NCBI RefSeq assembly: GCF_014633365.1
Contig: NC_068346.1
Location: 15,645,030-15,709,029, forward strand
Source of the DNA: Diospyros lotus
Taxonomy: Eukaryota > Streptophyta > Magnoliopsida > Ericales > Ebenaceae
Direction of reading: 5' to 3'
DNA: 64,000 nucleotides
In this document: positions 17,815 through 61,117 of the stretch, in pieces
How the letters are laid out: each line of letters begins with the position of its first letter
Position numbering within the stretch: position 1 is the first letter of the stretch
The notes under the pieces: generated by a model
Told to the model about the DNA's origin: nothing
What the model saw: the letters and a program-made list of their open reading frames with translations, nothing else
The model's database searches: none
Program-made: the position numbers and the translations under genes

Positions 17815-19582
17815 TCAGCCTCTTTCTCTTAAGCAATTCCCAGGCAAGAGAAATTTATACTTGTCGGCATTTTCCAAGAGATATGACGGAAGATGAACTG
17901 CAGAATAGGAGTGGGGAATTGGCCCCATTTTCCCAATGATTTCCTTAAATGTATACTCCTCGGGTAACATATCAAACAAGTCAGCCCCTTCGCAGATCAC
18001 TTTCTGAACTCTTTTAGGGTTCAAATAACGAGAGAACCTCACTCTGTCATAATGGCTGTAAGCTTTCATTTTGAATATGAACTCATCAATGTGACGGAAG
18101 CAAAAGCTACAATGCCACCCAGCATCAGCCAAGATAACCTCAGACTGTCGATAATGTGCATACTTTGTCTTACCGGACTGATACCTGTGGACTGAAGCTC
18201 TCCAGCTGTTATTGTCCACAAGGAACTCAAAGGAGTATAGATAGTTCTTCAGCCGAAGATGGAGCACTGGAGGTATGTCATCACACCACCTCAAGAGATC
18301 AATAGTGTGTCTGCTTGGAATCTCATCAACATCCGACATTATCAACAAATCATCATCTGAAATACTGGCTAGTTTGAGAAGATGATCCAATGCTAGTCGC
18401 TGGTATGCCTCTTCAATAAATGGATTTTCCCCCTTCCTAAACCTTCCTCCAATTTTACCATATGTCAATCGTGGCTCCACAAATGTGAATAGATTTCGGT
18501 TTTTCTCAAAAACCAGAGGCTTTGGTAATCCAGTGAAGGTTGAGTTCGACTCAAGGAGGACAAATCCTGTCACATATGGGTACAATTCCTTCCACCTAAT
18601 GGTGAGAATCTCTATCTCATTACTAAACAACACTGCATCAAAAACTCGCCTTGGGTATTCGCGAATTCCCCACCCATGAAGTTTGCAGAGGTTCTCCATT
18701 GGTACATTCTCATGATAATAGTGAGGGATTTCGAAGAAGGGCTTGGGAGGCGACTCCCACAATGGTCGCAAGAAGTACGAGATCTTCTGCCCATGCAAAT
18801 AAACAACAAAGGTGCATGTAGGGATCAACACAAATAGAAATATATAAATTTTCAAATCCATTCCTCGCAGAAAACATCGCAATCTCGACATGCTAAACAT
18901 TCCACCTGGCTCCTGCAAATTCAAAAAGAGACACCATCTCCTATATTCAGCACAACGACACATAAATATAAGAACAAAATTCATGTATAGGGTACTGATG
19001 GGAAACATGGATAATCCATCTTTCTAACCAATGAGCAGTCAGCTTTTGCTTCACAATCAGAGTAAGCGAGCAGATTAGGGCTAGCCTAAAAGTGCAAACA
19101 AAACCCTAATCAATGAAAATTAGGGCATTATGCAATGAGAGTAGGCAAATTCCATAATCCATTTCCATGGGTTCCACGAATAACATTAGTATCTTCAGTT
19201 TTCATGTGATAAAGGACTTTTCAGAAAGTGAAATAAAACAATGAACTTTCTCATCCGCTTCTGGGTTCGTTCATTCAAGCTCCAGGCACAAAAAAAAGGT
19301 TGAAAAACAACCCCCCGCCCCCCCCCCCCCCCCAAAAAAAAAAAAAAAAAACTCGAAAATAAAAAAGAAATCAGCCTTTTCTTTTCCTTACCATTTATCA
19401 GCAGCCCAGAAAATCACGACCCAAGGCCATAAAATTAAACCTAATCGAAACATTGAGACAAGCAAAATCCAAACAATGTTGCGAGAAACAAGCAGAAGGG
19501 AGATAAGAATTACCTCATCGCCGCTACGGCCGCAAATATCGTCGCTCTTCTTAGAGCAGTAACGAGATCCTCCTTCGGCCAT
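17815..19582 (-). CDS. GT17 beta-1,4-N-acetylglucosaminyltransferase-like protein
   Basis: The gene reads complement(join(17815..18912,19514..19582)). Exon 1 encodes [20 protein letters not shown] and three further residues, then GTAATT. Exon 2 begins after TTTGCAG. The phase-0 join gives 388 residues. Residues about 44-62 ([19 protein letters not shown]) form one membrane anchor, giving a type II Golgi topology. Then come the conserved [13 protein letters not shown] stem, CKLHGWG, the [15 protein letters not shown] segment, and an acidic SDVDE motif at 216-220 of the type expected to bind a metal-nucleotide sugar. The C-terminal half ([25 protein letters not shown]) is typical of family GT17, the relatives of mannosyl-glycoprotein bisecting GlcNAc transferase; the plant acceptor is not established. 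Exon 1 resembles the short N-terminus with a Ser-Lys-Lys-x-Asp-Asp-Ile-Cys core seen in plant homologues. The long open frame to 19008 extends into the intron and should not be used as the start. No lesions are seen. Confidence 0.88.
18913..19513 (-). other. Intron 1 of GT17-like gene
   Basis: 601 bp with donor GAG|GTAATT and acceptor TTTGCAG|GAG. It contains a poly-C/poly-A run (19318-19351) that is likely to be length-variable. Confidence 0.75.
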
Positions 19583-30004: not shown

Positions 30005-30699
30005 TGATGTGAACCCATGATGGAACAAAGCCAAAGGAACCCATAAAAGATTGAAACGAACCCTAGAAAAGCTAAAATCGAATATAAGGCAAAGAATTCT
30101 CGACCTGTTGATTCATGAACCAAGAACCTAGATTATATTAAAATCTAGACCCGTTGATATGCATAAACAAGAACCAAGAATTGTGTTGTTGAACGCCACA
30201 AAGACTGCCCAAATCTTTGATAAGTTCAGGTCTTGAACGCCACAAATAAATAAATCCTTTGATAAGTTTGAAGTTTTGTTCTTTGAAGGACAAGATAGAA
30301 AAACGCAAAATCTCTCAAATTCAATTCATAATAATCTTCTTCTTTCGTTTGCAATGGAAAAACCTTTAAATAAGAAAAAATAATTAAATCCTAATTCTAC
30401 TTGAAAAATAATAAAAATCCTAAACCTATTCATAAACTAAATCCTAAATCTAATGGGTTTTAGTTAGCCCAATCCAAATAGAAGTAGAAATAACAAAAGT
30501 AACTAAATCAAACTACAAGTTGGAATAACAAAACTAACATAATGCAACTACAAGTTGAAATAATAAAACTAACTCAATCCTAAATTACATAGGAAATAAG
30601 TAAATAACTTGCTAAACAAGAATCCAATTTTTGATAAGGATGACTGGATTGACTGATAACATTGCATCATTGTTAGTCGGCTCTCCATGATTCTCATCA
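30005..30699 (-). repeat. 3' LTR of gutted element
   Basis: It starts TGATGTGAACCC and ends TTCTCATCA on the plus strand. It is a direct repeat of 44715-45451; the right copy has a few short insertions. Confidence 0.75.
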
Positions 30700-30757
30700 T
30701 TCCCTTCCTCTTGAAGACGATTCGTCCTCGAATCATAAACTAGAACAATCAACTTGT
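30700..30757 (-). other. Polypurine tract and pol tail of gutted element
   Basis: Plus-strand ttcccttcctcttg (30700-30713) is a purine tract on the minus strand, next to the LTR. It lies in the frame that encodes DSRTNRLQEEGNDE, the last recognisable piece of a pol polyprotein. The interior is interrupted here by the Athila TSD TCGGC. Confidence 0.6.
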
Positions 30758-30762
30758 CGGCT

Positions 30763-32784
30763 GACTGCACTCTCACCCTGCAATTAAAACACAAAACAAA
30801 ACACAATAAAAATTTTATATTTTATTTATTTATTTAGGCGAGAGGTTTATACTCGTCAGTGTACGAGTGCAGTTGTAGTTCAAATTTAAATTTATACTTT
30901 CTGGATAAGTCCAGGTCGTCTACTGAGAGATTTATTTATGGCAAAAGAAAAAAAAGAATGTCACACACACGCACACGCATTTAGATGGATTGATAACATG
31001 ATTTTTTATAATTTTTTTAGATAACAAATACTAGAAAATAAAGCAAGACAGAAGTTGAAATAAATACTAAACGTGAGAATATGAAATTGGAAAGTACTTG
31101 AGTTAAGACAATTTCAGTGCCAACCCGTTGATTCCCAAATATTAGCATAAAAGATTAGCAACATTAATTTAATTTCAGATATGAGGATTTGTTATTAAAT
31201 GCAATTAAAGATAATGATAGCTTTAGTTTAAGCAATCCCCATACATGATATGCGGGATTCTAATTTAAGAAACTACCATAAATTTAATTACAATTAATAC
31301 ACAAAACAACTAAATTAATTATCCGGGTTTGGGTATGATAGCGTTTCCAGTTCTAGTAACTCTCATGCGTGACATGAAAGCTCTAAGTTAGGTTTACGCT
31401 CCAATCCAAACCTAGTGATTTTTCAATAATCAAAACAAACTCATATTGAAGTTTAAACCAATGTTACTCATTTAAAGCGTAGCTTTCTTTGGGAATCATT
31501 GGCGTTAGACACTGTCCTTGCCTTAACCCAAGATTAGATTTAGCTACTCATCTCTATTAAATTAATTGACAACAATTTAAATGACATAATTTAAATAACA
31601 GAATTTAAATGACAGGAATTAAAATAGAAGAAACTAACCGGCCATTTAGGCGGTAGATAATTAAAATACAAGAATTAAAATTGCAAGAATTTAAAGGCAT
31701 AAACTAACCGTCCATTTAGGCGGTGAACAATTAAATGACAAGAATTAAAATTGCAAGAATTTAAAGGCATAAACTAACCGTCCATTTAGGCGGTGAATAA
31801 TAAAGTAATAATAAATGACATAAGAATTTAAAAGAAGAAAGGAAGAAAGTAAGATCACAAGAGAAAATACTAAAGAAAATGAGAGAGAACAAAAGCAATT
31901 CTCAAAGAGAGAATTCTAAGGAAATAACTAAACTTTGATTCAAGAATAATAATCACACTTACAAATGCAATCAAGTGATCTATTTATAGGCCACAAGATG
32001 CAATACAAACCACACAATTTCAATTATTCAACTAGACATAATTATATCTAATGGGCACTCACACACTTAAAGTTAAATGGATTTTAGCTATAATACACAT
32101 CTAATATTAAATGGATTTTAGCTATAATATCCACCTAATAGTTAAGTGGATTTTAGCTAAAAAACACACCTAATAAAGCTCTCACATAAAAAATAAAAAT
32201 AGATTTCTATAAATTGATTTTTAATCTTCATTAGGATTAAAAATAATCCTTGGGCCTTCTCCAAATAATATCTTCCATGGGTTGCTCAAATTGGGCCTTA
32301 ATTCTTCATGGGCTTAAATTCTTCATGGACTTTAATTTTTCATGTGCTTGATTTCTTCATGGACTTGAATTCTTCATGGGCTTGATTTCTCCATGGGTTT
32401 GATTTCTTCATGGACTTGAATTCTTCATGGACTTTAAGTCTTCATGGGCTTTAATTCTTCATGCCTAAAAAAAATAAAAATAATTTAATATTATTAATAA
32501 ATTATATATTATATATATGTATTACACATGGCACATATATATATATATTATATTATATTATATATATTACATGAATGCATATAATGATGTATATGTATTA
32601 TATATAATTTTATATATTATTATTATTATTATTAAATTTTACTTTAAAATTTCATTTCATTCATTTTTCAATTTAAACTTGCATATAACCATAAAATATA
32701 TATTAATATCTAATTTAAACTATTTTTAAGATCAAAAGAAGGGTATAATTATAACAAAATTTTTATAAAATTAACCACTAATCA
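30763..32784 (-). repeat. 3' LTR of Athila-type element
   Basis: Plus-strand ends are TGACTGCACTC and CCACTAATCA. It is nearly identical to 42450-44483. The internal triplicated 'tttaggcggt' words (31650, 31720, 31790) and the run of 'cttcatgg' words (32270-32460) are shared by both copies. Confidence 0.9.
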
Positions 32785-32797
32785 TACCCCCCAACTT
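32785..32797 (-). other. Polypurine tract of Athila-type element
   Basis: Plus taccccccaactt reads aagttggggggta on the minus strand, directly next to the 3' LTR. Two further copies of this tract occur inside the element. Confidence 0.75.
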
Positions 32798-34216
32798 AAA
32801 CATTGCTAGTCCCTTAGCAATCAGATTATACACCTGCCAAACTTTATTCACAATAACTGTATGAATGTAAAAATTTCAAATTCGAAACCGAAATGCATAA
32901 AATTAAATAAATAATTTAGCATTCTAAATCAGATTTTTGGTTAAAGGTCATACAATCTCAGGAATGGAAATTAGGATAACCAACACACAGACTTACTCCC
33001 TCGAAGTTTTGACTTCAAATCTTACTATGGATTTTCTCTCCAATAAAAAGGATTCCTCAAGTGTACACACAAGGGGGTGCACCGTTATAAGAGTAAATGC
33101 AGAACAAGTTCAAAACTCGGTGCCATCCCAAATACAAGGAACGTATTTTCATGAAAGAACAGGGAAATTGACATAGCTTCATGATTGGAATAATGCTCTA
33201 GACGAGTAACTTCTGAATTTAAACATGATTCCCTACTCCAAACTCAAATTCTGAGATCACATGATTTATAGCATAAAAAAGGACCAGACTGGGTTGTAAT
33301 GGGGCTATAAGGTTAATACGGGTTGTCAAAGAAAAGGTAGAGTGTGCAAAGGGTGTGTCGGGATTTTTTTTTTTAGCATTTATTTTGAAACAGTTATGCT
33401 GAATAACTAAGAGAATTTGCCCCCTTTTTTCACTTTTTTTTTTCTTCTTTTTTTTTTTCTTCTTTTTTTTCTTCTTCTTCTTTTGAAATATGAAAATAGA
33501 TAAACAGACTAATTCCCAAAGTCACACCAGGTTGGATAAAATTCATATGGTTATGGGTTAAACAAGGGTAACGAAAGAAGTTGTACTACAAATGGCTCAA
33601 ATGGGCTAACAAGAGGTTGATTTAAAGAAAAAAAAAAATAGGCTCAAAATGAAAGAAATTGATCCCCCTATCATGCTTCTCAGTCATCTAATTCATAGTT
33701 TGAAACCAGTCAAATTCATCCGCTATCATACTAGACATTCAAAGCGAATTGATATTTTGAAGCCATTGAAAAGATAAGATAAACAAGAGAGCATATTTAG
33801 AGTAAGTGTTATTTCACTCAGAATTAACGGTTATTAGGCTCAAACACTTGCTTAGGTAATAGTCTCCACTTCTGTTGAGGGATCATACAGTGTACTAATC
33901 AGTTAATTACTGTTACCTTTGACTTTATGACCGATAACCAATTTCTAAATTTTGAATCCCTGATGAATGTAAATTACTTATTCTCATGCATAAACGTTTT
34001 CAAATGAGAAATCAATGCATTCATGTTTCGTATTGTAAACTTAACCGGCTATCAGTGCATAACTTTAAAGCTTTAGGAATAGCATTATTTAAAACACATA
34101 ATAATTTTTGTTTTTTATAAGAGCAGATAAAGACAATCAATTCCCACAAGACTACAAACTAGTAATTACAAACTCACAGTTAAATATAAACCAGATGATT
34201 CATGACTAGACCTTAC

Positions 34217-34392: not shown

Positions 34393-34590
34393 AATGCGTC
34401 TCAAGAGTACAAAAAGTACTCCTTACTCAGCCATCTTATCAAAGACTTTGCTAACAACATTCCACAGTTTTGTTTTGTTTTGTTTTTTTTTTTTTTTAAA
34501 AAACACAACCAAGAAAAATTCTGCGAGTTGTACAATAACTAGATGCGTCTCAAGAGTACAAAAAGTACTCCTTACTCAGCCATCTTATTA
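34393..34590. repeat. 48-bp direct repeat pair related to the Cys-rich ORF
   Basis: Two nearly identical copies (34393-34442 and 34541-34590) begin 'atgcgtctcaagagt' and hold 'actccttactcagccatctt'. A third, longer version of the same wording lies at 35579-35625 inside the Cys-rich ORF. Thus part of the ORF sequence was duplicated into the region downstream of the LOG-like gene. Confidence 0.65.
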
Positions 34591-34601: not shown

Positions 34602-35261
34602 TCACAGTGATAAATCTAAATTAATCGGACCCCTTTGGCGCTTGTTACTAATTGCCTTAGACCAGTCTATCCGAGGCTCATGAGGATCGTACTGTGGAAC
34701 ATAAGCATGTAATTTCTCTAACAGCTTATCAATGGTGGATGCAGAAATGAGAATCTTTCTTGCTGAACGAGAAATGAACTGTTGGTCCACAGCCTGATCA
34801 AGAAAAGAGAGTAACCCATCGAAAAAATGGTTAACATTTAAAAGTCCAATGGGTTTGGTATGGAGATTACTCTTGGCCCAGGAGATTATACAAAAGATTT
34901 CTTCAAGTGTTCCAAAACCTCCTAGTAAAGCAATGAAGGCATCTGACTGATAAATCTTACAAGCCATGCGCTCAGACATAGAAGTCGTTTCTATAAGTTG
35001 ACCGCGTGTAATCCAGGAAATATGTGGTTCAGCTAAAGGGATTGGCATTATACCTACCACAGATGAATTTCCAAGATGTACAGCTTGTGAAACATAACCA
35101 TTCAATCCACGACTTCCCCCTCCATATACCAAATTAATTTTTTTCTCTCCTAATTTTTTACCAAGTTCGTTCGCTGCAAGTGCGTAACAAATATCACTCC
35201 CAAGTTGAGAGCCACAAAGTACACATATGGTTTTAATTTGACGAACGAACTGCCCTTCCAT
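34602..35261 (-). CDS. LOG: LOG-like cytokinin riboside 5'-monophosphate phosphoribohydrolase
   Basis: An intact 219-codon frame with a true ATG. LOG enzymes hydrolyse cytokinin nucleotides directly to free, active bases and ribose 5-phosphate in the plant cytosol and nucleus. The whole fold is recognisable: KTICVLCGSQLGS at the N-terminus, LVYGGGSRGLNG at 44-55 (nucleotide loop), VSQAVHLGNSSVVGIMP, then SMSERMACKIYQSDAFIAL (94-112) and LGGFGTLEEI (113-122), the signature GGxGTxxE. Arg98 and Glu121, the positions of the catalytic pair in the family, are kept. The Pro that usually precedes GGxGT is Leu113, the usual GLMG is GLNG, and the C-terminus is atypical. Length fits plant LOGs (about 210-225). 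Plant LOG genes have several introns and this copy has none in its coding region, so an RNA-derived capture is likely. It lies on the element's sense strand between pol and the 3' LTR, 167 bp after the Cys-rich ORF. Activity is unproven. Confidence 0.93.
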   Translation of the reverse strand: MEGQFVRQIKTICVLCGSQLGSDICYALAANELGKKLGEKKINLVYGGGSRGLNGYVSQAVHLGNSSVVGIMPIPLAEPHISWITRGQLIETTSMSERMACKIYQSDAFIALLGGFGTLEEIFCIISWAKSNLHTKPIGLLNVNHFFDGLLSFLDQAVDQQFISRSARKILISASTIDKLLEKLHAYVPQYDPHEPRIDWSKAISNKRQRGPINLDLSL

Positions 35262-35281: not shown

Positions 35282-35386
35282 CTGAAAAGAAGTTTGGAGA
35301 TCAAAAGTAGCTATACAACAATTCAACAAGAAATAAATACAAACAAAAATCTTGTGTATATATAAGTAGTTGTGATTGTGGCTCAC
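35282..35386 (-). other. Candidate 105-nt intron between the accessory ORFs
   Basis: Minus-strand text reads GAAGAT|GTGAGC, then a U-rich stretch, then CTTCTTTTCAG|GACATAC, 20 bases before the LOG-like ATG. Length, U-content and splice sites suit a plant intron. Removal would shorten the leader in front of the LOG-like ORF and discard an upstream open stretch. Not demonstrated. Confidence 0.45.
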
Positions 35387-35428
35387 ATCTTCCTCTGGTT
35401 TTACGTCCAGAAACGGCTTAAACACTTT

Positions 35429-35974
35429 CTATGAAGTGGGGATAAGCTTCCCATCCAATTTTCTTATAGATTGGAAAACATGGTCGTTTTTAGTCAGATT
35501 CCCAAGACTATAGCGTTGGTGGTCACTTCTGAACTGGGTCCATAAAGCAAGAAGTTCTCTTTGCACTATTCCACACGGATGCGTCTCAAGAGTCAATCGG
35601 ATATCATCCAGAGACTCCTTACTCAGTCCATCCTTTATGAAACTAATTTTATCTTCTCGATTTATGGACGTAAACCCCACAGATTTGCATCGTGTGTTAC
35701 AGGTCCATCGAGCACATTTGTAACAACCATTCACTCTTTTCGCTCTTCTTTTCTTCGCAAAACTACTCTTCCCTAAGTCTGGAAAATGCTTAAAACTAGG
35801 TGAAGTTTCACCAGCTAATCGAACTTTTGTTTCGATCAGCCAACGAATATCTTCAGGGATGTTATTAAGCATCAACAACCTAAGTCTTTCACACCTAGCA
35901 ACATAAATTTTTTTCAAATCATTCTGCGGGAGAGATGTATAGTACTTGTGAATTTTTGAGAGATAAAGATCCAT
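35429..35974 (-). CDS. Cys-rich basic accessory protein of the Athila element
   Basis: An intact 181-codon frame with a true ATG after an A-rich leader. I cannot assign a family. Residues 1-70 look helical and charged (LKKIYVARCERLRLLMLNN, then DIRWLIETKVRLAGE). Residues 74-80 are a basic KKRRAKR run, followed at 84-96 by C-x2-C-x4-C-x3-C (CYKCARWTCNTRC). The C-terminal part (DDIRLTLETHPCGIVQRELL) is again helical. A basic patch directly before a short Cys cluster recalls the nucleic-acid-binding, silencing-suppressing proteins of several plant RNA viruses (for example carlaviruses), but this is an architectural resemblance only. It is not a Gag knuckle (no CCHC) and not an env-like protein (no signal peptide or membrane segment). 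It precedes the LOG-like ORF on the same strand and shares its promoter-like region. Confidence 0.7.
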   Translation of the reverse strand: MDLYLSKIHKYYTSLPQNDLKKIYVARCERLRLLMLNNIPEDIRWLIETKVRLAGETSPSFKHFPDLGKSSFAKKRRAKRVNGCYKCARWTCNTRCKSVGFTSINREDKISFIKDGLSKESLDDIRLTLETHPCGIVQRELLALWTQFRSDHQRYSLGNLTKNDHVFQSIRKLDGKLIPTS

Positions 35975-36060
35975 TTTTTTTTTTTTTAACTATACTAAGA
36001 AGAAAGTAAAGAACTATAAACTTTACAAAAGGGATGAGAGTACCTGATCGGAGAATAACA

Positions 36061-36290
36061 CAAAGGAGAGAAGACTGAGCTCAAGAAGGGTGGCTTGCCT
36101 TATACAGATATGGAGTCTCTTATAGAGCAATGACCATTACCATTTTACACTCGGCTCGAGGCATGCCATAATTACAGGGTCAGGCTTGGCGTCTCTTTTT
36201 CAACGCTTGGTGCCTCATTTTTCAACATTTGGCAGTGTGCCTTATTCTTTATAGGGCAGTGTGATTGCACTGCCCAAGAAAAGATAGCTA
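36061..36290 (-). promoter_or_regulatory. Promoter-like block upstream of the accessory ORFs
   Basis: Three related 22-bp units lie at 36183-36204, 36205-36226 and 36227-36248 (cttgg... ttttcaac). A perfect 8-bp palindrome (GGGCAGTG, 6-nt loop, CACTGCCC at 36254-36275) sits next to a minus-strand CTATAAAG (TATA at 36247-36253). Two more TATA-like words read on the minus strand at 36118-36124 (TATAAGA) and 36098-36104 (TATAAGG), about 130 bp before the ATG at 35974. Iterated elements, palindrome and TATA in that order look like an RNA polymerase II promoter that would give a separate accessory transcript. Inferred from sequence only. Confidence 0.5.
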
Positions 36291-36500: not shown

Positions 36501-36512
36501 ACCCCCCAACTT
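36501..36512 (-). other. Internal polypurine-tract copy after pol
   Basis: accccccaactt followed by aaattgcg matches the tract beside the 3' LTR (32786-32797). It sits between pol and the promoter-like block. Confidence 0.55.
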
Positions 36513-36814
36513 AAATTGCGCATTGTCCTCAATCGACAATAAAAGGATAGAAGATAGGCATACCTGGTGGTCTTCAATGCATGAACTTGTATGCAAAAAA
36601 ATTTTATTTAGACTGCACACAGAGAAACACTCTTTGAATCAAAGTTAATTAAGTAATGCAGAAAATGAACAACTTATATATATAATTCTTTATTATTTTA
36701 TTTTATTTTATTTTTTTATTTTTTAATTTTTTTTTCAGATCTATAAACATCCATTTAACCTAAATGGAAAGGTGGTCTTTTAACGTCAGATTCCCAGACG
36801 ATAGGAAACTTTCC

Positions 36815-39589
36815 CTACTCATCAGATGATGATGGATCATCTAAATCCACAACTCCTTCATTCTCCTCAACACTACCCTGGTATGGTTTCAACCTATGAC
36901 CATTGACTGTTAGAAGCTGTCCTGACTCCAGATTTTCTATCTCAAATGCCCCATATCCTGAGATGGACTTGATTACAAAGGGGCCGACCCATCGAGACTT
37001 CAATTTTCCTGGGAATAGATGCAATCGAGAATCATACAAGAGTACCCGTTGCCCTACCTGAAAGCTTTTTCGAATGATGTGCCGATCATGTAACTCTTTC
37101 ATGCGAACCTTGGCCAATCTTGCATTTTCAAATGCTTCATTCCGAATTTCTTCAAGTTCATTCAATTGGAGCTTCCTGGATAAGCCTGCTTCAGTTAGAC
37201 TCTTGTTGATCTTATGAATTGCCCAATATGCTTTATGCTCAATTTCCACCGGCAGATGACAAGATTTACCGTATACTAGCCTATAGGGAGACATTCCCAA
37301 AATTGTTTTGTAAGCTGTCCTGTACGCCCAAAGAGCGTCTACTAGTCTTAAGGACCAATCCTTACGATTAGCAGCAATAGTCTTTTCCAATATGCGCTTA
37401 ATCTCCCTATTGGCTAACTCGGCTTGACCATTGGTTTGGGGATGGTATGGTGTTGCAACCTTATGCAGTACACCATATTTCTTCATTAATCCTGCCACAA
37501 CTTTATTACAAAAATGGGAACCCCCATCACTGATGATTGCTCGTGGCATCCCAAATTGACTGAATATATTTTCTTTCAAAAATTTCACGACAGTCCTATG
37601 GTCATTTGTTCTGGCCGGGATTGCTTCTACCCATTTGGACACATAGTCAACAGCAAGTAAGATGTATTCATGACCAAATGAATTGACAAATGGGCCCATA
37701 AAATCCATACCCCAACAGTCAAAAACTTCTAACACTTGGATCGGATGTAATGGCATCATGTTTCTCCTTGACAGACTTCCTAACCTTTGACATCGATCAC
37801 AATTTGAACAGAACTTGTACACATCCTTGAACAGTGTCGGCCAATAAAATCCACTCTGAAAAATTTTTGCAACTGTTTTCTTGACAGAAAAATGGCCTCC
37901 ACATGCAAGAGTATGACTGAAATTGATAACACTTTGTTGCTCATGATCGGGTATGCATCTACGGATGATTTGGTCAGGACAATACTTGAAGAGGTAGGGC
38001 TCATCCCAAAAGAAGGTTCTGACTTTTCTGAAGAATTTATGCCTATCTTGCTTACTCCAATGGTCTGGGATCAGACCAGTTGCCAGGTAGTTCGCAATGT
38101 CGGCATACCAAGGGACAACAGATGATGCACGAATAACATTCACTTTAAACAGTTGTTCATCAGGGAAATTGTCATGAATTGGTTCATCAAATTGTGTGAG
38201 ATCTTGACTTGGAATCCTTGACAAATGGTTAGCCACCACATTTTCTACTCCCTTCTTGTCTCTGATTTCAATGTTGAACTCTTGCAGGAGTAAGATCCAT
38301 CGGAGCAGACGGGGTTTTGCATCTTGCTTTGTGAACAAATACTTCAGAGCAGCGTGATCAGTAAAAATGATCACTAGTGACCCTACGAGGTAAGATCGAA
38401 ACTTGTCCAGGGCAAAGACAACTGCTAGTAACTCTTTCTCTGTAGTGGTGTAATTCTTTTGTGCCTCATTAAGAGTTTTGCTAGCATAATATATCACATG
38501 AGGTTTCTTATCCTTCCTCTGCCCTAACACAGCTCCTACCGCATAATCACTAGTATCGCACATAAGTTCAAATGGGAGGGACCAATCAGGGGACTGAATG
38601 ATAGGTGCTGAAATGAGTGCATCTTTCAATTTATCAAAAGCATTTTGACAGGCAGGACTCCATTCAAACGGAACATCTTGAGACAACAAATGGCACAAGG
38701 GTCTTGTTATGGTGCTAAAGGAAGCAATGAATCTCCTATAAAACCCTGCATGTCCCAAAAAACTTCTGATGTCTTTCACATTCCTAGGGATGTGGAGTTT
38801 TTGAATTGTTTCAATTTTTGACCTGTCTACCTCCATCCCCCTAGATGAAACGATGTGCCCCAAGACTATGCCCTGTTTCACCATGAAGTGACATTTTTCC
38901 CAATTGAGTATCAGATTTGTTTCCTCACATCTTGCTAAAACATTTTTCAGATTCTCCAAACAGGCCTCAAAGTTACTTCCATAAACAGAAAAGTCATCCA
39001 TAAACACTTCAACAATTTGCTCAACCATTTCACTGAAAATGCTCATCATACACCTTTGAAAGGTGGCTGGAGCATTGCATAACCCAAATGGCATGCGCCT
39101 GTATGCAAATGTCCCAAATGGACATGTGAAAGTTGTTTTCTCTTGATCTTCTAGTGCAATTTCTATCTGATTGTACCCTGAGTACCCATCTAAGAAACAA
39201 TAGTAGGCTTGGCCTGCTATTCTCTCCAGAACTTGATCCAAGAAAGGCAAAGGAAAATGATCTTTCCTTGTCACAGAATTGAGCTTTCTATAATCAATGC
39301 ACATACGCCATCCTGTCTGGATGCGCGTGGGAATCAGTTCATTGTTCTCATTTTTTACAACAGTGACTCCAGACTTTTTGGGTACTACCTGTGTTGGACT
39401 TACCCACTTAGAATCAGAGATTGGGTAAATTATTCCAGCATCCAATAGCTTAAGCACTTCTTTTCTGACAACTTCTTTCATGTTGGGATTTAATCTCCTT
39501 TGCATTTGCCTAACTGGTTTTGCTCCTTCTTCCAAGAATATCTTATGAGTACATATCAAAGGGCTAATACCTTGCAAATCTGAAATGGT
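36815..39589 (-). pseudogene. pol: Athila Pol: RT, RNase H, integrase (after amber codon)
   Basis: This is the continuation of the Gag-protease frame after a single TAG at 39590-39592; about 924 codons are open to the stop at 36815. Domains in order: reverse transcriptase ([28 protein letters not shown], catalytic FMDDFSVYG near 38990), RNase H ([17 protein letters not shown] and [10 protein letters not shown]), integrase with its zinc-binding HHCC motif (CGGHFSVKK... CSNCDRCQR), and the DDE core (WGMDFMGPF near 37705, [15 protein letters not shown]). The C-terminal [13 protein letters not shown] stretch is the chromatin-side tail. FMDD rather than YVDD is usual for this lineage. All catalytic residues are present. 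An apparent start at 39577 is a TTG and not an independent initiation site. Replication of the element would need the amber codon to be read through, or helper proteins. Confidence 0.88.
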
Positions 39590-42322
39590 CTATCCTAATG
39601 ACTTCCTGTGTGCTTTTAGAACTTCTATCAATTGTTGCTCTTGCTGAGGTGTCAAACTTGAAGAGATCACCACTGGGAATGCTTCCCCTTCTCCTAGAAA
39701 GACATACTTCAAATCACTGGGCAATGGCTTTCTCTCAGGCGTGGACTGATGGCTATCAGGATCCATGAGCTTACTGTCCAAGTTTCTTAATGGCTCTAAA
39801 CCAGGCATCCATGTAGGCTTCTCACTTTCTTTGCTTATGACTTCCACTTCTTTTATTTCTTCAAGATCTTGATTTCCTTCTTTGGGTCTTCTCATGAACT
39901 CTTCAAAACAGTCATTGGTCAGTGTTTGGATCAAGTCTACCTCCTCCACTTCACTCTCAGTGTCCTGATGTTTGGCTACCCTGAAGATATTCATTTCTAC
40001 AGTCATGTTCCCAAAAGATAGCTTTAACACACCATTCCTACAGTTGATGATGGCATTTGATGTGGCAAGGAATGGTCGACCTAAGATGACTGGCACAGGA
40101 GGTTGAGGCCCCTGATGTGGCTGGGTGTCCAAAACGATGAAGTCTACTGGAAAGTAGAACTTATCGATTTGTACCAGAACATCCTCCACAATTCCTCGTG
40201 GAACTTTGACTGATCGATCAGCCAGCTGAAGGGTCACTCTAGTGGGTTTAAGCTCACCTAATCCCAACTGTTGATACACACTGTATGGCAACAAATTGAC
40301 ACTAGCTCCTAAATCCAAGAGTGCCCGATCAACCTTTTGACTTCCTATGATGCATGTAATGGTTGGACAGCCTGGATCTTTGTATTTGAGAGGAGTTTTC
40401 AATTGGAGAATGGCGCTGACTTGTTCAGTTAAGAATGCCTTTTCATGCACATTTGTTTTCCTTTTTACAGTGCACAGATCTTTCAAAAACTTTGCATATG
40501 AAGGTGTTTGTTTGATTGCATCCAACAACGGGATGTTGATTCTCACTTGCTTAAACACTTCATATATATCTGCATTTTGTTGCCCTTTTTTCAAATGATT
40601 CAACCTTTGTGGAAAAGGTGGTTTGGGCCTGTATTGAATTTCTTTCTCATCTTCTTTTTGTTTTTCATTTTTCTCATTTTTTTTATTTTTTTCATTTTTC
40701 TCATTTTTTTCATTTTTCTCCACGGTGGATTCATGATCTTTTGGTTCTTTTTCTTCATCAACATGTTGGTTTATCCTAGGATCAGTTGGTTTCTCAATTA
40801 TTCTTCCACTTCTTAGGGCAGTCACTGCTTGCACTTGTTCATGAGTGTTGGTTTCACTATTTGAAGCTTCTACCTGGTTGGTTTGCCTAATTGGGTTAGG
40901 ATTAGTTTGGGATGGAAACCTTCCGGGTTCTCTCACACTCAATGTTTGTGTTATCTTGGTCAACTGGCTCCTAATGTCTTCTATGGCTCTATTTGTTTGG
41001 TCTTGATTTTTGACAAGCTGAGCAACCTGATTGTTGATACCTGTTTGACTTTGGATGAACTGGTGCAAGGTATCTTCCAAAGATCTCCTATGAGGAGGTT
41101 GGTAAGTATTGGATGAAGAACCTTGATTTTGTTGAAAGGTGTGTTGTTGTGTAGGGAAGGGAGGTTGAGAATGATTTCCAGAATCATTTCTCCAAGAAAA
41201 ATTGGGGTGATTTCTATTATTGGGATGGTATGAATTGTAATTCTGATTATTCCCATAATAGGCTCCACTCTGATTTTGATTTAGTCTCCCCTCAAAGTTG
41301 TGTGAATGATTATTATTAGTCTGCCCATACAATACCTCCTTGAAAGCAGGTAGGGTAGGACATTCTTCAGTTGAATGATCTGTTGCATCACACACAACAC
41401 ACTTTACTTCCACTTGATTAACAGATTGCACCTTTTTGGGTTGCATGTTTTCAACTTTCTTTGTTAAAGCAGTTAGTCTTGCATTTAAATCATCACTCTC
41501 ACTCAGTTGGTATCTCCCTCTAGGTTGTGGATTTTCTCTTGAATCAAGAGCAGATGTTGGACCAACTTCCCAGTTCCTTGTATTCTCAGCCAATGTGTCA
41601 AAGAAGTGGAAAGCTTCTTCTGGAGTCTTCTCATAGAATTCTCCATTGTACATTGTAGAAACTAGCATTTTCAATTGGGGAGTGAGTGAATCATGAAAGA
41701 AACTGACCACTCTCCATTGCTCAAAAGCATGGTGCGGACAAGTGTGAATAAGGTCTTTAAACCTTTCCCACGCTTGAGCAAAATTCTCATTTGGTTTACA
41801 GGCAAAGTTCATGATTTGTCTTTGAAGAGTAGCAGTTCTGTTGGCAGGGAAGTATTTTTTTAAGAAAGTTGTTTGCATTTCTCTCCAAGTTCCTATAGAT
41901 CTAGGTGGGAGAGTGCTTAACCATATTTTTGCCTTATCTTTCAGTGAGAATGGAAAGAGTTTTAATCTTATGACATCTTCATTTGCTGTATGGTCCATGC
42001 AAGTGCTACATACTTCCTCAAATTCTTTCATATGAGTATATGGATTTTCAGAATCCATGCCATGAAAAGTTGGTAACAATTGGATTATGCCAGGTTTGAA
42101 GTTAAACCTATGATGGTTGATGGGAAGAATAATGCATGAGGGGGTTGTCTGCCTAGGAGGATGAAGATACTCCCTAAGGGGTCTGATCATCTCCTGATCA
42201 ATGGGATCAGGGTCACCGTGGTCACTACCACGTGCAGACATGTTCTGTGGAAGTGGCATGTTCTCATTATGTTGAGACATGAGTGACTGATTTTCTACAG
42301 TTTTACCTGACCTAAGTATCAT
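39590..42322 (-). CDS. gag: Athila Gag-protease polyprotein (stops at amber)
   Basis: The frame starts MILRSGKTVENQ, 105 bp inside the primer site, and runs 910 codons. About residues 80-260 form the retrotransposon Gag domain (DVIRLKLFPFSLKDKAKIWL, then NFAQAWERFKDLIHTCPHHA). A CVVCDATDHSTEEC knuckle follows, then a long Gln/Asn-rich segment, and a KNEKNEKNEK repeat near residue 545. The aspartic protease lies near residue 668 (RALLDLGASVNLLP, at 40290-40333) with the later VILGRPFLATSNA flap-side motif. The frame ends at TAG (39590-39592) in a position where neighbouring codons continue straight into RT. Related elements have one continuous Gag-Pol frame, and the codon here differs by one base from a Trp codon. 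The stop is therefore a recent nonsense change or a readthrough site. Confidence 0.9.
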   Translation of the reverse strand: MILRSGKTVENQSLMSQHNENMPLPQNMSARGSDHGDPDPIDQEMIRPLREYLHPPRQTTPSCIILPINHHRFNFKPGIIQLLPTFHGMDSENPYTHMKEFEEVCSTCMDHTANEDVIRLKLFPFSLKDKAKIWLSTLPPRSIGTWREMQTTFLKKYFPANRTATLQRQIMNFACKPNENFAQAWERFKDLIHTCPHHAFEQWRVVSFFHDSLTPQLKMLVSTMYNGEFYEKTPEEAFHFFDTLAENTRNWEVGPTSALDSRENPQPRGRYQLSESDDLNARLTALTKKVENMQPKKVQSVNQVEVKCVVCDATDHSTEECPTLPAFKEVLYGQTNNNHSHNFEGRLNQNQSGAYYGNNQNYNSYHPNNRNHPNFSWRNDSGNHSQPPFPTQQHTFQQNQGSSSNTYQPPHRRSLEDTLHQFIQSQTGINNQVAQLVKNQDQTNRAIEDIRSQLTKITQTLSVREPGRFPSQTNPNPIRQTNQVEASNSETNTHEQVQAVTALRSGRIIEKPTDPRINQHVDEEKEPKDHESTVEKNEKNEKNEKNKKNEKNEKQKEDEKEIQYRPKPPFPQRLNHLKKGQQNADIYEVFKQVRINIPLLDAIKQTPSYAKFLKDLCTVKRKTNVHEKAFLTEQVSAILQLKTPLKYKDPGCPTITCIIGSQKVDRALLDLGASVNLLPYSVYQQLGLGELKPTRVTLQLADRSVKVPRGIVEDVLVQIDKFYFPVDFIVLDTQPHQGPQPPVPVILGRPFLATSNAIINCRNGVLKLSFGNMTVEMNIFRVAKHQDTESEVEEVDLIQTLTNDCFEEFMRRPKEGNQDLEEIKEVEVISKESEKPTWMPGLEPLRNLDSKLMDPDSHQSTPERKPLPSDLKYVFLGEGEAFPVVISSSLTPQQEQQLIEVLKAHRKSLG

Positions 42323-42426: not shown

Positions 42427-42444
42427 TCCCCGGCAACGGCGCCA
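42427..42444 (-). other. tRNA-Asp primer-binding site of Athila-type element
   Basis: The minus strand reads TGGCGCCGTTGCCGGGGA, five bases from the LTR end. It is complementary to the 3' end of plant tRNA-Asp(GUC), the primer used by Athila elements. Confidence 0.85.
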
Positions 42445-42449: not shown

Positions 42450-44483
42450 TGACTGCACTCTCACCCTGCAATTAAAACACAAAACAAAACACAATAAAAA
42501 TTTTATATTTTATTTATTTATTTAGGCGAGAGGTTTATACTCGTCAGTGTACGAGTGTAGTTGTAGTTCAAATTTAAATTTATACTTTCTGGATAAGTCC
42601 AGGTCGTCCACTGAGAGATTTATTTATGGCAAAAGAAAAAAAAGAATGTCACACACACGCACACGCATTTAGATGGATTGATAACATGATTTTTTATAAT
42701 TTTTTTAGATAACAAATACTAGAAAATAAAGCAAGACAGAAGTTGAAATAAATACTAAACGTGAGAATATGAAATTGGAAAGTACTTGAGTTAAGACAAT
42801 TTCAGTGCCAACCCGTTGATTCCCAAATATTAGCATAAAAGATTAGCAACATTAATTTAATTTCAGATATGAGGATTTGTTATTAAATGCAATTAAAGAT
42901 AATGATAGCTTTAGTTTAAGCAATCCCCATACATGATATGCGGGATTCTAATTTAAGAAACTACCATAAATTTAATTACAATTAATACACAAAACAACTA
43001 AATTAATCATCCGGGTTTGGGTATGATAGCGTTCCCAGTTCTAGTAACTCTCATGCGTGACATGAAAGCTCTAAGTTAGGTTTACGCTCCAATCCAAACC
43101 TAGTGATTTTTCAATAATCAAAACAAACTCATATTGAAGTTTAAACCAATGTTACTCATTTAAAGCGTAGCTTTCTTTGGGAATCATTGGCGTTAGACAC
43201 TGTCCTTGCCTTAACCCAAGATTAGATTTAGCTACTCATCTCTATTAAATTAATTGACAACAATTTAAATGACATAATTTAAATAACAGAATTTAAATGA
43301 CAGGAATTAAAATAGAAGAAACTAATCGGCCATTTAGGCGGTAGATAATTAAAATATAAGAATTAAAATTGCAAGAATTTAAAGGCATAAACTAACCGTC
43401 CATTTAGGCGGTGAACAATTAAATGACAAGAATTAAAATTGCAAGAATTTAAAGGCATAAACTAACCGTCCATTTAGGCGGTGAATAATAAAGTAATAAT
43501 AAATGACATAAGAATTTAAAAGAAGAAAGGAAGAAAGGAAGAAAGTAAGATCACAAGAGAAAATACTAAAGAAAATGAGAGAGAACAAAAGCAATTCTCA
43601 AAGAGAGAATTCTAAGGAAATAACTAAACTTTGATTCAAGAATAATAATCACACTTACAAATGCAATCAAGTGATCTATTTATAGGCTACAAGATGCAAT
43701 ACAAACCACACAATTTCAATTATTCAACTAGACATAATTATATCTAATGGGCACTCACACACTTAAAGTTAAATGGATTTTAGCTATAATACACACCTAA
43801 TATTAAATGGATTTTAGCTATAATATCCACCTAATAGTTAAGTGGATTTTAGCTAAAAAACACACCTAATAAAGCTCTCACATAAAAAATAAAAATAGAT
43901 TTCTATAAATTGATTTTTAATCTTCATTAGGATTAAAAATAATCCTTGGGCCTTCTCCAAATAATATCTTCCATGGGTTGCTCAAATTGGGCCTTAATTC
44001 TTCATGGGCTTAAATTCTTCATGGACTTTAATTTTTCATGTGCTTGATTTCTTCATGGACTTGAATTCTTCATGGGCTTGATTTCTCCATGGGTTTGATT
44101 TCTTCATGGACTTGAATTCTTCATGGACTTTAAGTCTTCATGGGCTTTAATTCTTCATGCCTAAAAAAAATAAAAATAATTTAATATTATTAATAAATTA
44201 TATATTATATATATGTATTACACATGGCACATATATATATATATTATATTATATTATATATATTACATGAATGCATATAATGATGTATATGTATTATATA
44301 TAATTTTAAATATTATTATTATTATTATTATTAAATTTTACTTTAAAATTTCATTTCATTCATTTTTCAATTTAAACTTGCATATAACCATAAAATATAT
44401 ATTAATATCTAATTTAAACTATTTTTAAGATCAAAAGAAGGGTATAATTATAACAAAATTTTTATAAAATTAACCACTAATCA
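42450..44483 (-). repeat. 5' LTR of Athila-type element
   Basis: Nearly identical to 30763-32784. It differs by about ten substitutions, an extra ggaagaaa unit near 43530 and a longer att run near 44320. The TSD TCGGC follows. Confidence 0.9.
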
Positions 44484-44611
44484 TCGGCATCTTTGCCACC
44501 CAGCATTAAGAAATTTTTGTGGTCGCCCCATTTCCAAATTTTCAAGCATCTTTTTTTATGTAGGAATGAAAAAGAAGAAAACAAGGATAGATAAAATACC
44601 CGAAATTCAAA

Positions 44612-44730
44612 GCTCTGATACCAACTGATACACGATCTGGTGCTCTAATACCAATTGATGTGAACCTGGTGCTTTGATAGCAACTGATGCGTGACCCAGA
44701 GCTCTGATCCCAACTAATGTGAACTCGCGA
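44612..44730 (-). repeat. Four tandem copies of a primer-site/LTR junction
   Basis: Units begin gctct(g/a)ata-like at 44612, 44642, 44671 and 44701 (periods 30, 29, 30). Each has the form gctctgatnccaactgatgtg: the reverse complement of a TTGGTATCAGAGC initiator-Met primer site fused to the first bases of the LTR (TGATGTGAAC). Only the last unit continues into the full LTR at 44715. Confidence 0.75.
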
Positions 44731-45451
44731 TGGAATGAAGCCAAAGGAACCCACAAAAGATTGAAACGAACCCTAGAAAAGTCAAAATCGGATATAAGGC
44801 AAAGAATTCTTGACTCATTGATTCACGAACCAAGAACCTAGATTATATTAAAATCTAAACCCGTTGATATGCAAAAACAAGAACAAAGAATTGTGTTGCC
44901 AAGAATTGTGTTGTTGAACGCCACAAAGACTGCCCAAATTTTTGATAAGTTCAGGTCTTGAACGCCACAAATAAATAAATCCTTTGATAAGTTCGAAGTT
45001 TTGTTCTGTGAAGGACAAGATAGAAAAAAAGCAAAATCTCTCAATTTCAATTCATAATAATCTTCTTCTTTCGTTTACAATGGAAAAACCTTTAAATAAG
45101 AAAAAATAATTAAATCCTAATTCTACTTGAAAATTAATAAGAATCTTAAACCTATTCATAAACTAAATCCTAAATCTAATGGGTTTTAGTTAGCCCAATC
45201 CAAATAGAAGTAGAAATAACAAAAGTAACTCAATCAAACTACAAGTTAGAATAACAAAACTAACATAATGCAACTACAAGTTGGAATAATAAAACTAACT
45301 CAATCCTAAATTAAATAGGAAATAAGTAAATAACTTGCTAAACAAGAATCCTAGTAAAAAAAGAATTCGTATTCATCCAATTCCAACCCAATTAACTGGA
45401 TTGACTGATTCGATTGAGTCATTGTTAGTCGACCCTCCATGATTCTCATCA
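44715..45451 (-). repeat. 5' LTR of gutted element
   Basis: Direct repeat of 30005-30699; its first bases read TAATGTGAAC, one change from the other copy. The TSD CCTTT follows at 45452-45456. Confidence 0.75.
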
Positions 45452-52860: not shown

Positions 52861-54208
52861 TGATAGAATTGAAATGATATGGCACACACCAAGAAGGGGG
52901 TGAATTGGTATAATTAAAATTTCTTTTGAGAAACAGAGATGTCGTCGATGAAGACCACGGATTCGTTAAACCTTAAGACCTTGAAATGGAATGATGAGGT
53001 ATCAATCGTGTAAAGACAATCTCATTTTGTGAAAAATAAATTTGAAAGCTTATAAATGAATTAACAGAAAGAGTAAGGATAAAAATGAAAACATGAACAC
53101 ATAAAAATAGAAGGCACAGAAGACACAAATTTATAGTGGTTTGGCTTTCCAAGCTTAGTCCACTATCTTAACTACCCACTAAGGATTTTTTAGCAAATTC
53201 ACTATCAACCCCCTACTCAAAACCCGAGTAGGTCCACTAGTCCGAGACTAGGAAATATACAAGCCTCCTAATCAAATGGGCCCTCTAGCTAATGCTAGGA
53301 AAAGCTACAGAAATTGTGAGAATGAAAATCTAAGAGAACAACTCTTAGTTACAAGCTCTCTCTTTAAATAAAGAATCGAGGCTTAAAATAAATGTAACAG
53401 TGAGATACATAAGCCGAAAAAATGAAAATACAGAGAGTAAAATTTAAAGCTCGATGTAACAATGAAAGCTTAGTAAATCAAGATATTTAATGTGTTCAGC
53501 AGCTTTCAATGCGTCTTCAACCACCTATTTATAGTTGATGGTGGATAAATTTGAATTTTGAACCATTGTGGGTGGTTGGACGAGTATTAATTGAGCAAAA
53601 AACTAGCCTTTATAAGTTTTTGAGAAACAAACGGTCGATGGACAAAATTGATTAGTCGACTATTTCTTCAAATAAAACTAGGCATAGTCGACAAACAAGA
53701 AAATATAGTCGACTATCTTCTAATACAAATTATCCATAGTCGACAAAACATTCACATAGTTGACAGATACAAAAATATGAAGAAGATTTTAAAAATCATA
53801 TATAAACATAGTTGACAAAAGTAAAACTATAGTCGACTATCCTTACATGATAGTCGGCAGAATAAAAAATAGTCGACAAAAGCCTTATATAGTCGACAGA
53901 TTATACAAGCATAGTCAATTATCCTTAGGCATAGTCGACTATCCTTAATAACATAGTCAACTATCCATTTTGAAAAAATGAAAACTTAACATATCTTCAT
54001 TTTGATTCTTTTGAAAGCAAGTTGAGATTATCAAAAATATATTTATTTTGAATTTAACCACACTCAACAATTCTTTTATAGATTTTCATACCTTGCTTCA
54101 AACTCATTTATTAAAGATTGATTTTCTCATTCATATAATCCATATAGCAGAGATTGATTTTCATATAGTCATTATCAAAACCATTTTATTACCAAGAGTA
54201 AAATATCA
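52861..54208 (-). repeat. 3' LTR of copia element
   Basis: It begins TGATAGAATTG and ends AAAATATCA on the plus strand. It carries a TATAAATAG box on the minus strand (53525-53533), with about 13 TAGTCGACTA-like words on its U3 side (53640-53960). Confidence 0.9.
53640..53965. repeat. TAGTCGACTA palindrome array, 3' LTR copy
   Basis: About 13 words of the form tagtcgacta or tagtcgacag, several with CpG changed to TpG or CpA, spaced roughly 20-35 bp apart, upstream of the LTR TATA box on the minus strand. Confidence 0.75.
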
Positions 54209-54222
54209 ATCTCCCCCCTTTT
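54209..54222 (-). other. Polypurine tract of copia element
   Basis: Plus atctcccccctttt is a purine tract on the minus strand immediately before the 3' LTR. Confidence 0.8.
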
Positions 54223-54589
54223 GATTGATGACAAAACAAATATGAAAATCAATTCACTCACTTTATCTACCCCTTTTTGTCAATATCAAAAAGATGAATA
54301 CTCCCCCTTTTTGAAACACACTGAGACTCCCCCTTAAACCAAGAAACACATAGATTGATCAACTATTGAAGCATACAGTTAGATTTAAACATATGTTAAT
54401 AAGAGTAAAATGTCAATACTTAAGCATTCATTCATAAAGTGATGATGTAGTCTAACAAAACATATGATGAAAGCAACATTTAAGACTGCCAAGGTAAACA
54501 TACACAAAGTAAGCATCTAAAAGTAAAGTAAAATGTATGATAAAGGCAACATCTAAACATCTGGAGAGATGGAGGAAGGAGAAGACTGA

Positions 54590-55702: not shown

Positions 55703-55924
55703 TGAGAGTGATGAGACACGATGCAATAGAGAGAGAGCAAGAGAAGCCGCAGGATATGGCCGAGAAACCAAGCGAAGGATAGAGCCGAGAGAGATCAAAG
55801 GAACAATTTGGATAGGTCAGCACTTCTAGAACACAAACGAATCAAATGCAAGATGATAGAGAGAGATAAGGATTTGGTACACAAGGAGAGCAGTTCGGCC
55901 ACACAAGGAGAAGTTAGGGTTTAA

Positions 55925-58655: not shown

Positions 58656-58656
58656 T

Positions 58657-59480: not shown

Positions 59481-59500
59481 TCCATTCTTGTTAGAAGATA

Positions 59501-61064: not shown

Positions 61065-61117
61065 TATGTGGATCTTGACCCTAGGTTGTTAGACCTAATT
61101 GAAAACAATGGGAACCA

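Follow-up and report, generated by a model that had tools for sequence, protein, structure and literature searches.

A total of 64,000 nucleotides of the genome of Diospyros lotus, a member of the Ericales (NCBI RefSeq assembly GCF_014633365.1, contig NC_068346.1, positions 15,645,030 to 15,709,029 of the forward strand) were analysed, and this whole stretch, numbered from its first letter, is hereafter called the window. It contains a long terminal repeat (LTR) retrotransposon of the Athila type in which two extra genes lie between pol and the 3′ LTR, namely a LOG-type gene and, directly upstream of it, a gene for a zinc-finger protein resembling the CRPs of carlaviruses. This two-gene cassette is real and belongs to a high-copy Athila-type family. 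Moreover, comparison of sequence variants showed selection on the LOG gene among the variants shared between copies and on the CRP-like gene across species. The occurrence of LOG domains in retrotransposons was already known, while the partner gene, the tail of the LOG protein, the selection and the RNA layout appear to be new. The coding features of the cassette are the following:

34602..35261, minus strand: LOG-type open reading frame (ORF) of 219 amino acids (ORF list, Pfam, TIGR00730, fold model)
35429..35974, minus strand: CRP-like zinc-finger ORF ('NABP') of 181 amino acids (Pfam Viral_NABP, 1.4e-8; Carla_C4, 3.5e-4)
34632..34643, minus strand: codons of the basic cluster KRQR (residues 207-210), a putative nuclear localisation signal
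34605..34619, minus strand: codons of the C-terminal LDLSL (residues 215-219), a putative EAR-type LxLxL motif

The two genes and their occurrence

A preliminary description of this DNA, made from its letters, had proposed a LOG gene at this position, and the profiles, the fold and the solved relatives agreed with it. The ORF comprises 219 codons from an ATG start, with neither an internal stop nor an intron, while host LOG genes contain introns. It matched PF03641 (Lysine_decarbox, 4.5e-31) and TIGR00730 (7.4e-41, above the cut-off), and its best solved sequence relatives were Arabidopsis At2g37210 (2.7e-50) and At5g11950 (2.6e-43), which we take to be LOG3 and LOG8, respectively. The predicted fold had a pLDDT of 87.6 and was best matched by 2a33 (TM 0.95 by target length). 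The highest-ranking fold matches comprised the same two Arabidopsis proteins together with type-I LOGs from P. aeruginosa and C. glutamicum. A chance ORF was rejected on the basis of these profile, solved-relative and fold matches. The motifs that the description had quoted were also present (CVLCGS, YGGGSRGLNG, SERM with Arg98 and GGFGTLEE with Glu121), so that the protein shares with the plant LOG1/3/4 hydrolases the fold, Arg98, Glu121, GGGxxGLxG and GGxGTLEE. Unlike them, the element LOGs form a separate clade, often lack Lys74 and frequently end in LxLxL. The NCBI equivalog model for the ribotide hydrolase, NF058542, gave the window LOG a score of 84.9, far under the cut-off of 300; however, it was undecisive for plant LOGs, because the host LOG P0343 (Diospyros lotus LOG1) also fell below it (131.4).

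The CRP-like protein scored 35.5 against Viral_NABP (gathering threshold of 23) and 20.9 against Carla_C4, exactly at the cut-off of 20.9, while its predicted structure had a pLDDT of 57. A total of 453 relatives were found, of which 120 were listed, with Populus, Orobanche, Acer, Rhamnella and Xanthoceras among the named genera. Among 27 aligned proteins, Carla_C4 was matched by all 27 and Viral_NABP by 26, and 26 columns were invariant. The four finger cysteines were kept in 111, 118, 119 and 117 of the 120 listed relatives, 103 of which had the exact spacing CX2CX4CX3C, and a basic stretch (KKRRAK) stands right ahead of the finger. The protein is like the CRPs of carlaviruses and allexiviruses in its basic stretch directly before a cysteine finger and in its Carla_C4 and Viral_NABP matches, and unlike them in its 181 residues, its long conserved C-terminal half, its finger spacing and its being borne by a retrotransposon instead of an RNA virus.

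To establish how widely the cassette occurs in Diospyros lotus, copies were chosen in two ways. With the LOG protein as query, 1,126 candidate places were found in the 630-Mb assembly; the 150 scored had 96-100% identity, 149 of them over residues 1-219 and one over residues 1-218, and a stop was present in nine. The LOG-selected set comprised 60 loci (20 plus 40), including the window's own place (L006). The pol-selected set was blind to LOG, a 1-kb piece of pol being the query (908 candidates, 40 scored); all 39 copies besides the window were fetched, none was dropped, and each held full-length CRP-like and LOG genes. Overall, both genes were present in 98 of the 99 fetched loci (59/60 LOG loci and 39/39 pol-selected copies), although the two sets overlap in some copies. 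The remaining locus (L060) lacked the CRP-like gene and was dropped from the LOG-selected alignment. Stops among the 60 LOG loci affected LOG in 7 of 60 and the CRP-like gene in 4 of 59. The search for further copies carrying the ORF, which the preliminary description had suggested, was therefore positive, and a lone capture in the window copy was rejected.

Outside Diospyros, evidence of linkage came from a few cases. Among the 120 CRP-like relatives that were listed, three gene models of Orobanche gracilis matched both genes, with all three Pfam labels, and the same models were found again via LOG (P0164 was rescanned). Furthermore, three pairs of LOG and CRP-like proteins came from contigs of equal size and shared source (8723, 4511 and 2128), which are probably the same contigs, and two Xanthoceras LOG proteins contained an Athila-like gag piece. 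The other element whose DNA was known, L005 (DAIEQH010000041.1), is a 3330-bp plant stretch with RNase H and integrase (RH-INT) followed by the CRP-like gene. It is filed under a metagenome-assembled genome of Candidatus Nomurabacteria yet carries plant-type retrotransposon genes, which probably reflects contamination.

The LOG protein had 1,294 relatives, of which the 120 listed included Diospyros itself as well as Xanthoceras, Reevesia, Diplodiscus, Populus, Rehmannia and Primulina among the named genera; we take the six genera other than Diospyros to represent several eudicot orders. A genome search with P0129 returned 150 places that look like the same Diospyros family (71-74% to P0129). 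A phylogeny was built from 83 rows: 53 representatives and the window, 26 host LOGs drawn from 120 listed, LOG8 and two bacterial proteins. All the element LOGs fell on one side of a branch (100/97), which appeared in 100% of 200 bootstrap trees and set them apart from the sampled host LOGs; these are of the LOG1/3/4 kind plus LOG8 only, the bootstrap had not settled and long branches meet at the outgroup. From linkage and clade membership, and not individually, we infer that the relatives in this clade are element-borne. The preliminary description had the young window element capturing a host transcript itself, which is at odds with the ORF lying in one clade with proteins of six other eudicot genera. 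Nor did IMG/VR viral contigs provide any source of relatives, save four weak LOG matches (L001-L004).

The same description knew of no retrotransposon LOG gene, and here the literature had preceded it: LOG/YgdH domains have been reported for Citrus and Populus elements of the Ty3/gypsy type (Alvarado-Marchena 2022, PMC9289625, citing Steinbauerova 2011). Those elements resemble the present one in having a LOG-type domain within plant Ty3/gypsy retrotransposons, and they are probably of the same lineage as the Diospyros family, judging by the Populus proteins in the LOG clade. In the available portion of that account, the CRP-like partner, the tail motif, the clade, the selection and the splice layout are not named (PMC9289625).

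Selection, catalytic residues and the LOG tail

The ratio of nonsynonymous to synonymous changes expected from the mutation spectrum of the flanks was 2.4:1. Among the 40 rows of the pol-selected alignment, the LOG variants shared by at least two copies amounted to 19 nonsynonymous and 20 synonymous (P = 0.0034), while singletons were 26:5, the two classes differing significantly (Fisher P = 0.0027). Such a contrast would be expected if filtering had acted on variants that went through replication but not on those that arose once a copy had inserted. For the CRP-like gene in the same rows, shared variants were 7:8 (P = 0.04) and all variants 25:19 (P = 0.03). In the LOG-selected alignment, made of 59 loci and the window (counted twice, as it is also L006), shared LOG variants were 15:19 (P = 0.0007); this test was kept as secondary because the choice of copies favours similar LOG proteins. 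Sites with at least three alleles were excluded (LOG and CRP-like, one and six in the LOG-selected set, three and two in the pol-selected set). Between Diospyros and L005, the CRP-like gene showed a nonsynonymous divergence (dN) of 0.25 and a synonymous divergence (dS) of 0.88, with a ratio of 0.29, while the dS of pol was saturated. Neutral evolution of the element copies, which the preliminary description had held up as an argument against itself, was not borne out by the shared LOG variants.

Regarding catalysis, Arg98 and Glu121, presumably the catalytic residues, were kept in 115 and 116 of the 120 relatives among the matches listed, and each of the glycines 47-49 in 118. Since these are conserved but Lys74 is often not, the activity of the element LOGs on cytokinin ribotides is predicted as likely. 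The exact motif PGGxGTxxE was found in 98 of the 120 listed relatives, and its proline in 39 of the 40 family rows; the window copy reads LGGFGTLEE and does not match it, and the family was therefore filed as LOG-type.

The leucine at the start of LGGFGTLEE is Leu113, where 110 of the 120 listed relatives have proline, and the window copy also carries Trp83, where 115 have glycine. Each was unique to the window among the 40 pol-selected rows, while in the LOG-selected alignment (60 rows, with the window twice) Trp83 appeared in two and Leu113 in four. Moreover, the window copy has an in-frame TAG between the protease and the reverse transcriptase that is private to it among the readable copies: of 20 other copies fetched, 19 were readable and all 19 had a sense codon there, on which basis programmed read-through at the gag-pol TAG was rejected. 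The gene had been described as intact, which holds for its open frame without stops, but the TAG in pol together with Trp83 and Leu113 means that the window copy has begun to decay. Judging by its departure from PGGxGTxxE, ribotide activity of this particular copy is doubtful.

The protein ends in a basic cluster followed by LxLxL, which has the form of an EAR motif, described as LxLxL or DLNxxP (PMC6479872), and binding to TOPLESS is predicted for it. LxLxL was found in the last seven residues of 95 of the 120 listed relatives against none of the 120 listed host LOGs (40/53 vs. 0/26 representatives), while shuffled tails contained it in a mean of 1.4 and a maximum of 7 of 120; these counts are not independent, given the close relationship among many of the 120. 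A largely overlapping set of 95, namely the listed relatives with a length of 214-222 residues (the full LxLxL being present in 91), had leucine at the last, third-last and fifth-last residue in 95, 93 and 93 cases, the residues in between being variable, and lysine or arginine at positions -10 and -11 in 93 and 85. The tail leucines were present in all 40 rows of the pol-selected alignment. The model confidence of the tail was low, as is typical of disordered tails.

The element, its RNA layout and its surroundings

The features of the element are the following:

42450..44483, minus strand: 5′ LTR (LTR pair comparison; the element reads on the minus strand)
30762..32784, minus strand: 3′ LTR (LTR pair comparison)
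44484..44488, no strand: target-site duplication (TSD) TCGGC, read from the sequence beside the 5′ LTR
30757..30761, no strand: TSD TCGGC, read from the sequence beside the 3′ LTR
42427..42444, minus strand: primer-binding site (PBS) TGGCGCCGTTGCCGGGGA, read from the sequence
32786..32799, minus strand: polypurine tract TTAAGTTGGGGGGT ahead of the 3′ LTR (motif scan)
36501..36514, minus strand: second, internal polypurine-tract-like TTAAGTTGGGGGGT in the interval between pol and the cassette (motif scan)
39590..42322, minus strand: gag-protease ORF of 910 codons, ending in the in-frame TAG (ORF list, Pfam)
36815..39577, minus strand: reverse transcriptase-RNase H-integrase, with a single RNase H region (ORF list, Pfam)
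36115..36127, minus strand: TATA-like CTCTATAAGAGAC, a putative internal promoter (exact in 59/60 aligned rows)
36038..36046, minus strand: putative splice donor CAG/GTACTC, i.e. cut between CAG and GTACTC (nine bases, 36048-36040, exact in 59/60 rows)
35282..35292, minus strand: putative splice acceptor CTTCTTTTCAG (14 bases, 35294-35281, exact in 56/60 rows)
35579..35624, minus strand: conserved RNA hairpin within the CRP-like ORF (motif and folding), with a putative role
34543..34577, minus strand: shortened hairpin copy downstream of LOG (exact in 54/60 rows)
34394..34428, minus strand: second shortened hairpin copy (motif and folding)
35366..35428, minus strand: conserved block right after the CRP-like stop (56/63 bases as in L005)

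The element measures 13,722 bases and encodes gag-protease and reverse transcriptase-RNase H-integrase on the same strand as the LOG ORF. The position assigned to that ORF by the preliminary description, between pol and the 3′ LTR on the sense strand of an Athila-type element with TCGGC TSDs and nearly identical LTRs, was found to be correct. The LTRs were 99.0% identical across 2035 columns, with nine substitutions in 2023 aligned sites (Kimura two-parameter distance of 0.0045), which at the rates we assume (1.3e-8 to 6.5e-9 per site per year) would correspond to ~0.17-0.34 My. The PBS is presumably of the tRNA-Asp type. The gene order, with the integrase last, was that of the Athila clade of Ty3/gypsy. 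The sole RNase H region spans residues 306-434, leaving 107 residues before the integrase zinc domain. The Tat lineage is marked by an additional RNase H (PMC6317226); it was rejected since no second RNase H was found in the pol of this element, and the presence of only one is why the element was named Athila-type. In L005, the counterpart of TTAAGTTGGGGGGT lies behind the CRP-like gene, while the window has one copy between pol and the cassette and one before the 3′ LTR; therefore, the order differs between lineages.

No ATG lies between 36137, just ahead of the TATA-like motif, and the CRP-like ATG at 35974; across the aligned copies, an ATG occurred in the leader in one of the 60 rows, compared to 60 of 60 for the preceding 145 nt. 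The candidate acceptor lies 20 bases ahead of the LOG ATG. From this arrangement we infer one internal promoter for both genes, where the unspliced RNA would give the CRP-like protein and the RNA spliced from 36043 to 35282 would give LOG.

A second layer of conservation may be cis-acting. The motif GAGTAAGGAGT...ACTCTTGAGACGCAT appeared three times in the window (shuffle mean of 0.00), once within the CRP-like gene and twice, shortened, behind LOG. Agreement between Diospyros and L005 at fourfold sites was 34/103 in pol and 8/22 in CRP-like residues 1-100, and rose to 15/20 in residues 101-181, these halves having been pooled from four segments after inspection. The inner stem was predicted in the three window hairpins and in L005, whereas the outer GAUG/CAUC stem was found in three of the four and was missing at 34394-34428. 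Folding z-scores were -2.0, -2.0 and -2.0 for the window copies and -3.6 for L005. Paired changes, read by eye, were seen in the outer stem (GGATG/CATCC vs. AGATG/CATCT) and likewise in the uppermost part of the inner stem. Five sub-threshold Rfam matches occurred in the element, the best being snoR71, and none fell on the hairpin. We propose a cis-acting role for the hairpin. The block at 35366-35428 was more conserved between Diospyros and L005 than the CRP-like gene itself and is open in frame for ~20 codons in both; its fold alone was not unusual (z of -0.83), and it may act as an RNA element or else represent a read-through extension.

As for the remaining sequence, both LTRs contain tandem arrays of 70-bp, 34-bp and 17-bp units (31586-32463 and 43274-44159). 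The Athila-type element is nested in an older LTR element, whose flanks (30007-30699 and 44717-45451) are 88.6% alike and whose PBS-like TGGTATCAGAGC lies at ~44613-44624 on the minus strand. A second LTR pair (52861-54218 and 61133-62491, 93% identical) bounds a Ty1/copia element (RVT_2, 52861-62491), in which an extra ORF (54806-55798) resembled Transposase_32 below the cut-off (3.4e-9); this domain has been related to Athila ORF1 (PMC11728184). Furthermore, a tandem array of ~11 copies of a 95-bp unit (9545-10593) lies behind a separate retrotransposon gag ORF (8031-9041), and a glycosyltransferase family 17 ORF (17815-19008, minus strand, 1.1e-184) is apparently an ordinary host gene.

Possible roles of the cassette

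We propose, with the chances evenly balanced, that the conserved CRP-like and LOG-type cassette reprograms the host cell in favour of the element. An internal TATA promoter behind pol would give an RNA whose leader lacks ATGs and in which the CRP-like start codon comes first; once a 762-nt intron (36043-35282) had been spliced out, the LOG start codon would come first instead. The CRP-like protein would enter the nucleus via KKRRAKR, bind nucleic acids via its Cys4 finger and likely weaken RNA silencing or alter host transcription, as reported for carlavirus CRPs. The LOG domain would act on ribotides to yield free cytokinin, and its tail would carry the protein into the nucleus and bring in TOPLESS-type corepressors. 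Together, both proteins would favour division-competent, less defended cells, where new insertions would be inherited more often. A benefit through germline access had been suggested in the preliminary description for LOG, and this idea becomes more plausible because of the CRP-like neighbour, as carlavirus CRPs are reported to be silencing suppressors and that of chrysanthemum virus B to be a transcription factor inducing hyperplasia (PMC12172455). In a broader form, which is possible but doubtful, this would be an old retrotransposon lineage equipped, much as complex retroviruses are, with a regulatory module, in which an internal promoter, alternative splicing, a nuclear CRP-like RNA or DNA binder recognising the element's own repeated hairpin and a TOPLESS-recruiting hormone enzyme would push cells towards division and away from silencing.

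Several observations weigh against the reprogramming proposal. Regarding the enzyme, Lys74 was present in all 120 listed host LOGs but in only 70 of the 120 listed element LOGs, and residue 74 was isoleucine across all 60 Diospyros family rows. The C-terminal LxLxL was missing in 25 of the 120 listed relatives, and the earliest-branching Xanthoceras rows stop after the basic cluster, without it. The finger spacing CX2CX4CX3C is not the CX2CX12CX4C, with a basic nuclear localisation signal before it, that is reported for a carlavirus (PMC10141686), and the gene was therefore called CRP-like and not CRP. L005, the other element whose DNA was known, has no LOG within its 3330 bases, which shows that the two genes need not occur together, nor was a comparable promoter seen there by eye. 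As for selection, all LOG variants pooled in the pol-selected rows (45:25) were not depleted of amino-acid changes (P = 0.15), and the CRP-like signal within the family was weaker (singleton vs. shared, P = 0.36). In the LOG-selected set, LOG singletons and shared variants did not differ significantly (34:20 vs. 15:19, P = 0.12), nor were shared CRP-like variants significantly depleted (18:11, P = 0.14). Finally, broken copies exist, with a LOG stop in three, a LOG gap in two and a CRP-like stop in two of the 40 pol-selected rows.

Among the alternatives, the LOG domain may be mainly a scaffold for a nuclear, TOPLESS-recruiting tail that titrates or redirects the corepressor, e.g. from silencing or defence genes, cytokinin release being secondary or lost. 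The tail leucines, which are among the most conserved residues of the protein, the frequent absence of the host Lys74 and the low NF058542 score (though the host LOG fails as well) agree with this; however, Arg98 and Glu121 are kept in nearly all listed relatives and a mere tail would need no whole fold of ~190 residues, so we hold a scaffold to be unlikely. It is quite unlikely that the enzyme acts on AMP-type ribotides instead of cytokinin, serving purine or deoxynucleotide supply for reverse transcription or the relief of a nucleotide-based defence. The nucleosidase PpnN among the weaker fold matches, the AMP-bound type-I LOG structures among the best ones and a residue 74 unlike that of host LOGs would fit such a substrate, but the closest solved sequence relatives are plant LOG-type proteins.

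A third explanation, which we judge very unlikely, is that the cassette stands in for the env-like gene of Athila and serves the particle in packaging, as RNA chaperone or in movement, with the CRP-like protein binding the element's hairpin and LOG as an auxiliary. The cassette does lie at the 3′ end, where the extra ORFs of Athila are reported to sit (PMC11728184), the hairpin and the post-stop block show conservation of their nucleotides and two further copies of the hairpin lie downstream; even so, the finger and basic stretch would equally fit a nuclear regulator, and LOG would be left unexplained. Passive passengers, i.e. a host LOG transcript and a viral gene caught by chance and copied without function, are most improbable. 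In their favour, the extra ORFs of plant LTR retrotransposons are described as so heterogeneous that doubt has been cast on their function (PMC6317226), the window LOG has drifted at two conserved residues and the pooled LOG variants do not depart from the neutral ratio. Against them, the shared variants are depleted of amino-acid changes, the frame is open in most rows and the same residues are kept across species.

Reprogramming by transposon-borne proteins would have parallels. Ty3/gypsy elements of Phalaenopsis orchids with an AlkB RNA demethylase ORF likewise carry an extra enzyme proposed to act against host control (PMC9289625), albeit a different enzyme in another element lineage. The effectors HaRxL21 and Jsi1 are also foreign proteins with an EAR-type motif, whose TOPLESS binding is reported (PMC7446885, PMC8126959) whereas that of the element tail is predicted; they are secreted by an oomycete or a fungus, while the element tail is transposon-encoded and fused to an enzyme. 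In open-licence papers, no account was found of a retrotransposon-borne CRP-like gene, of its pairing with LOG or of the LOG tail, an absence that is weak because of this restriction. The reference survey is described as counting extra ORFs of at least 250 codons only (PMC6317226), and both ORFs (181 and 219 codons) are shorter than this, a possible reason for the pair having escaped notice.

Overall, Diospyros has the two extra genes side by side, as does Orobanche in the small number of linked cases observed, and the LOG variants that are passed on show the signature of selection. For annotators, this carries a warning, as the closest listed relative of the window LOG, the 99% identical Diospyros lotus protein P0001, is named 'LOGL10' by NCBI. 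Should the proposal hold, this would be a case of a transposon manipulating both a plant hormone and a corepressor of its host, and the purpose of the extra genes of plant retrotransposons would become directly testable.

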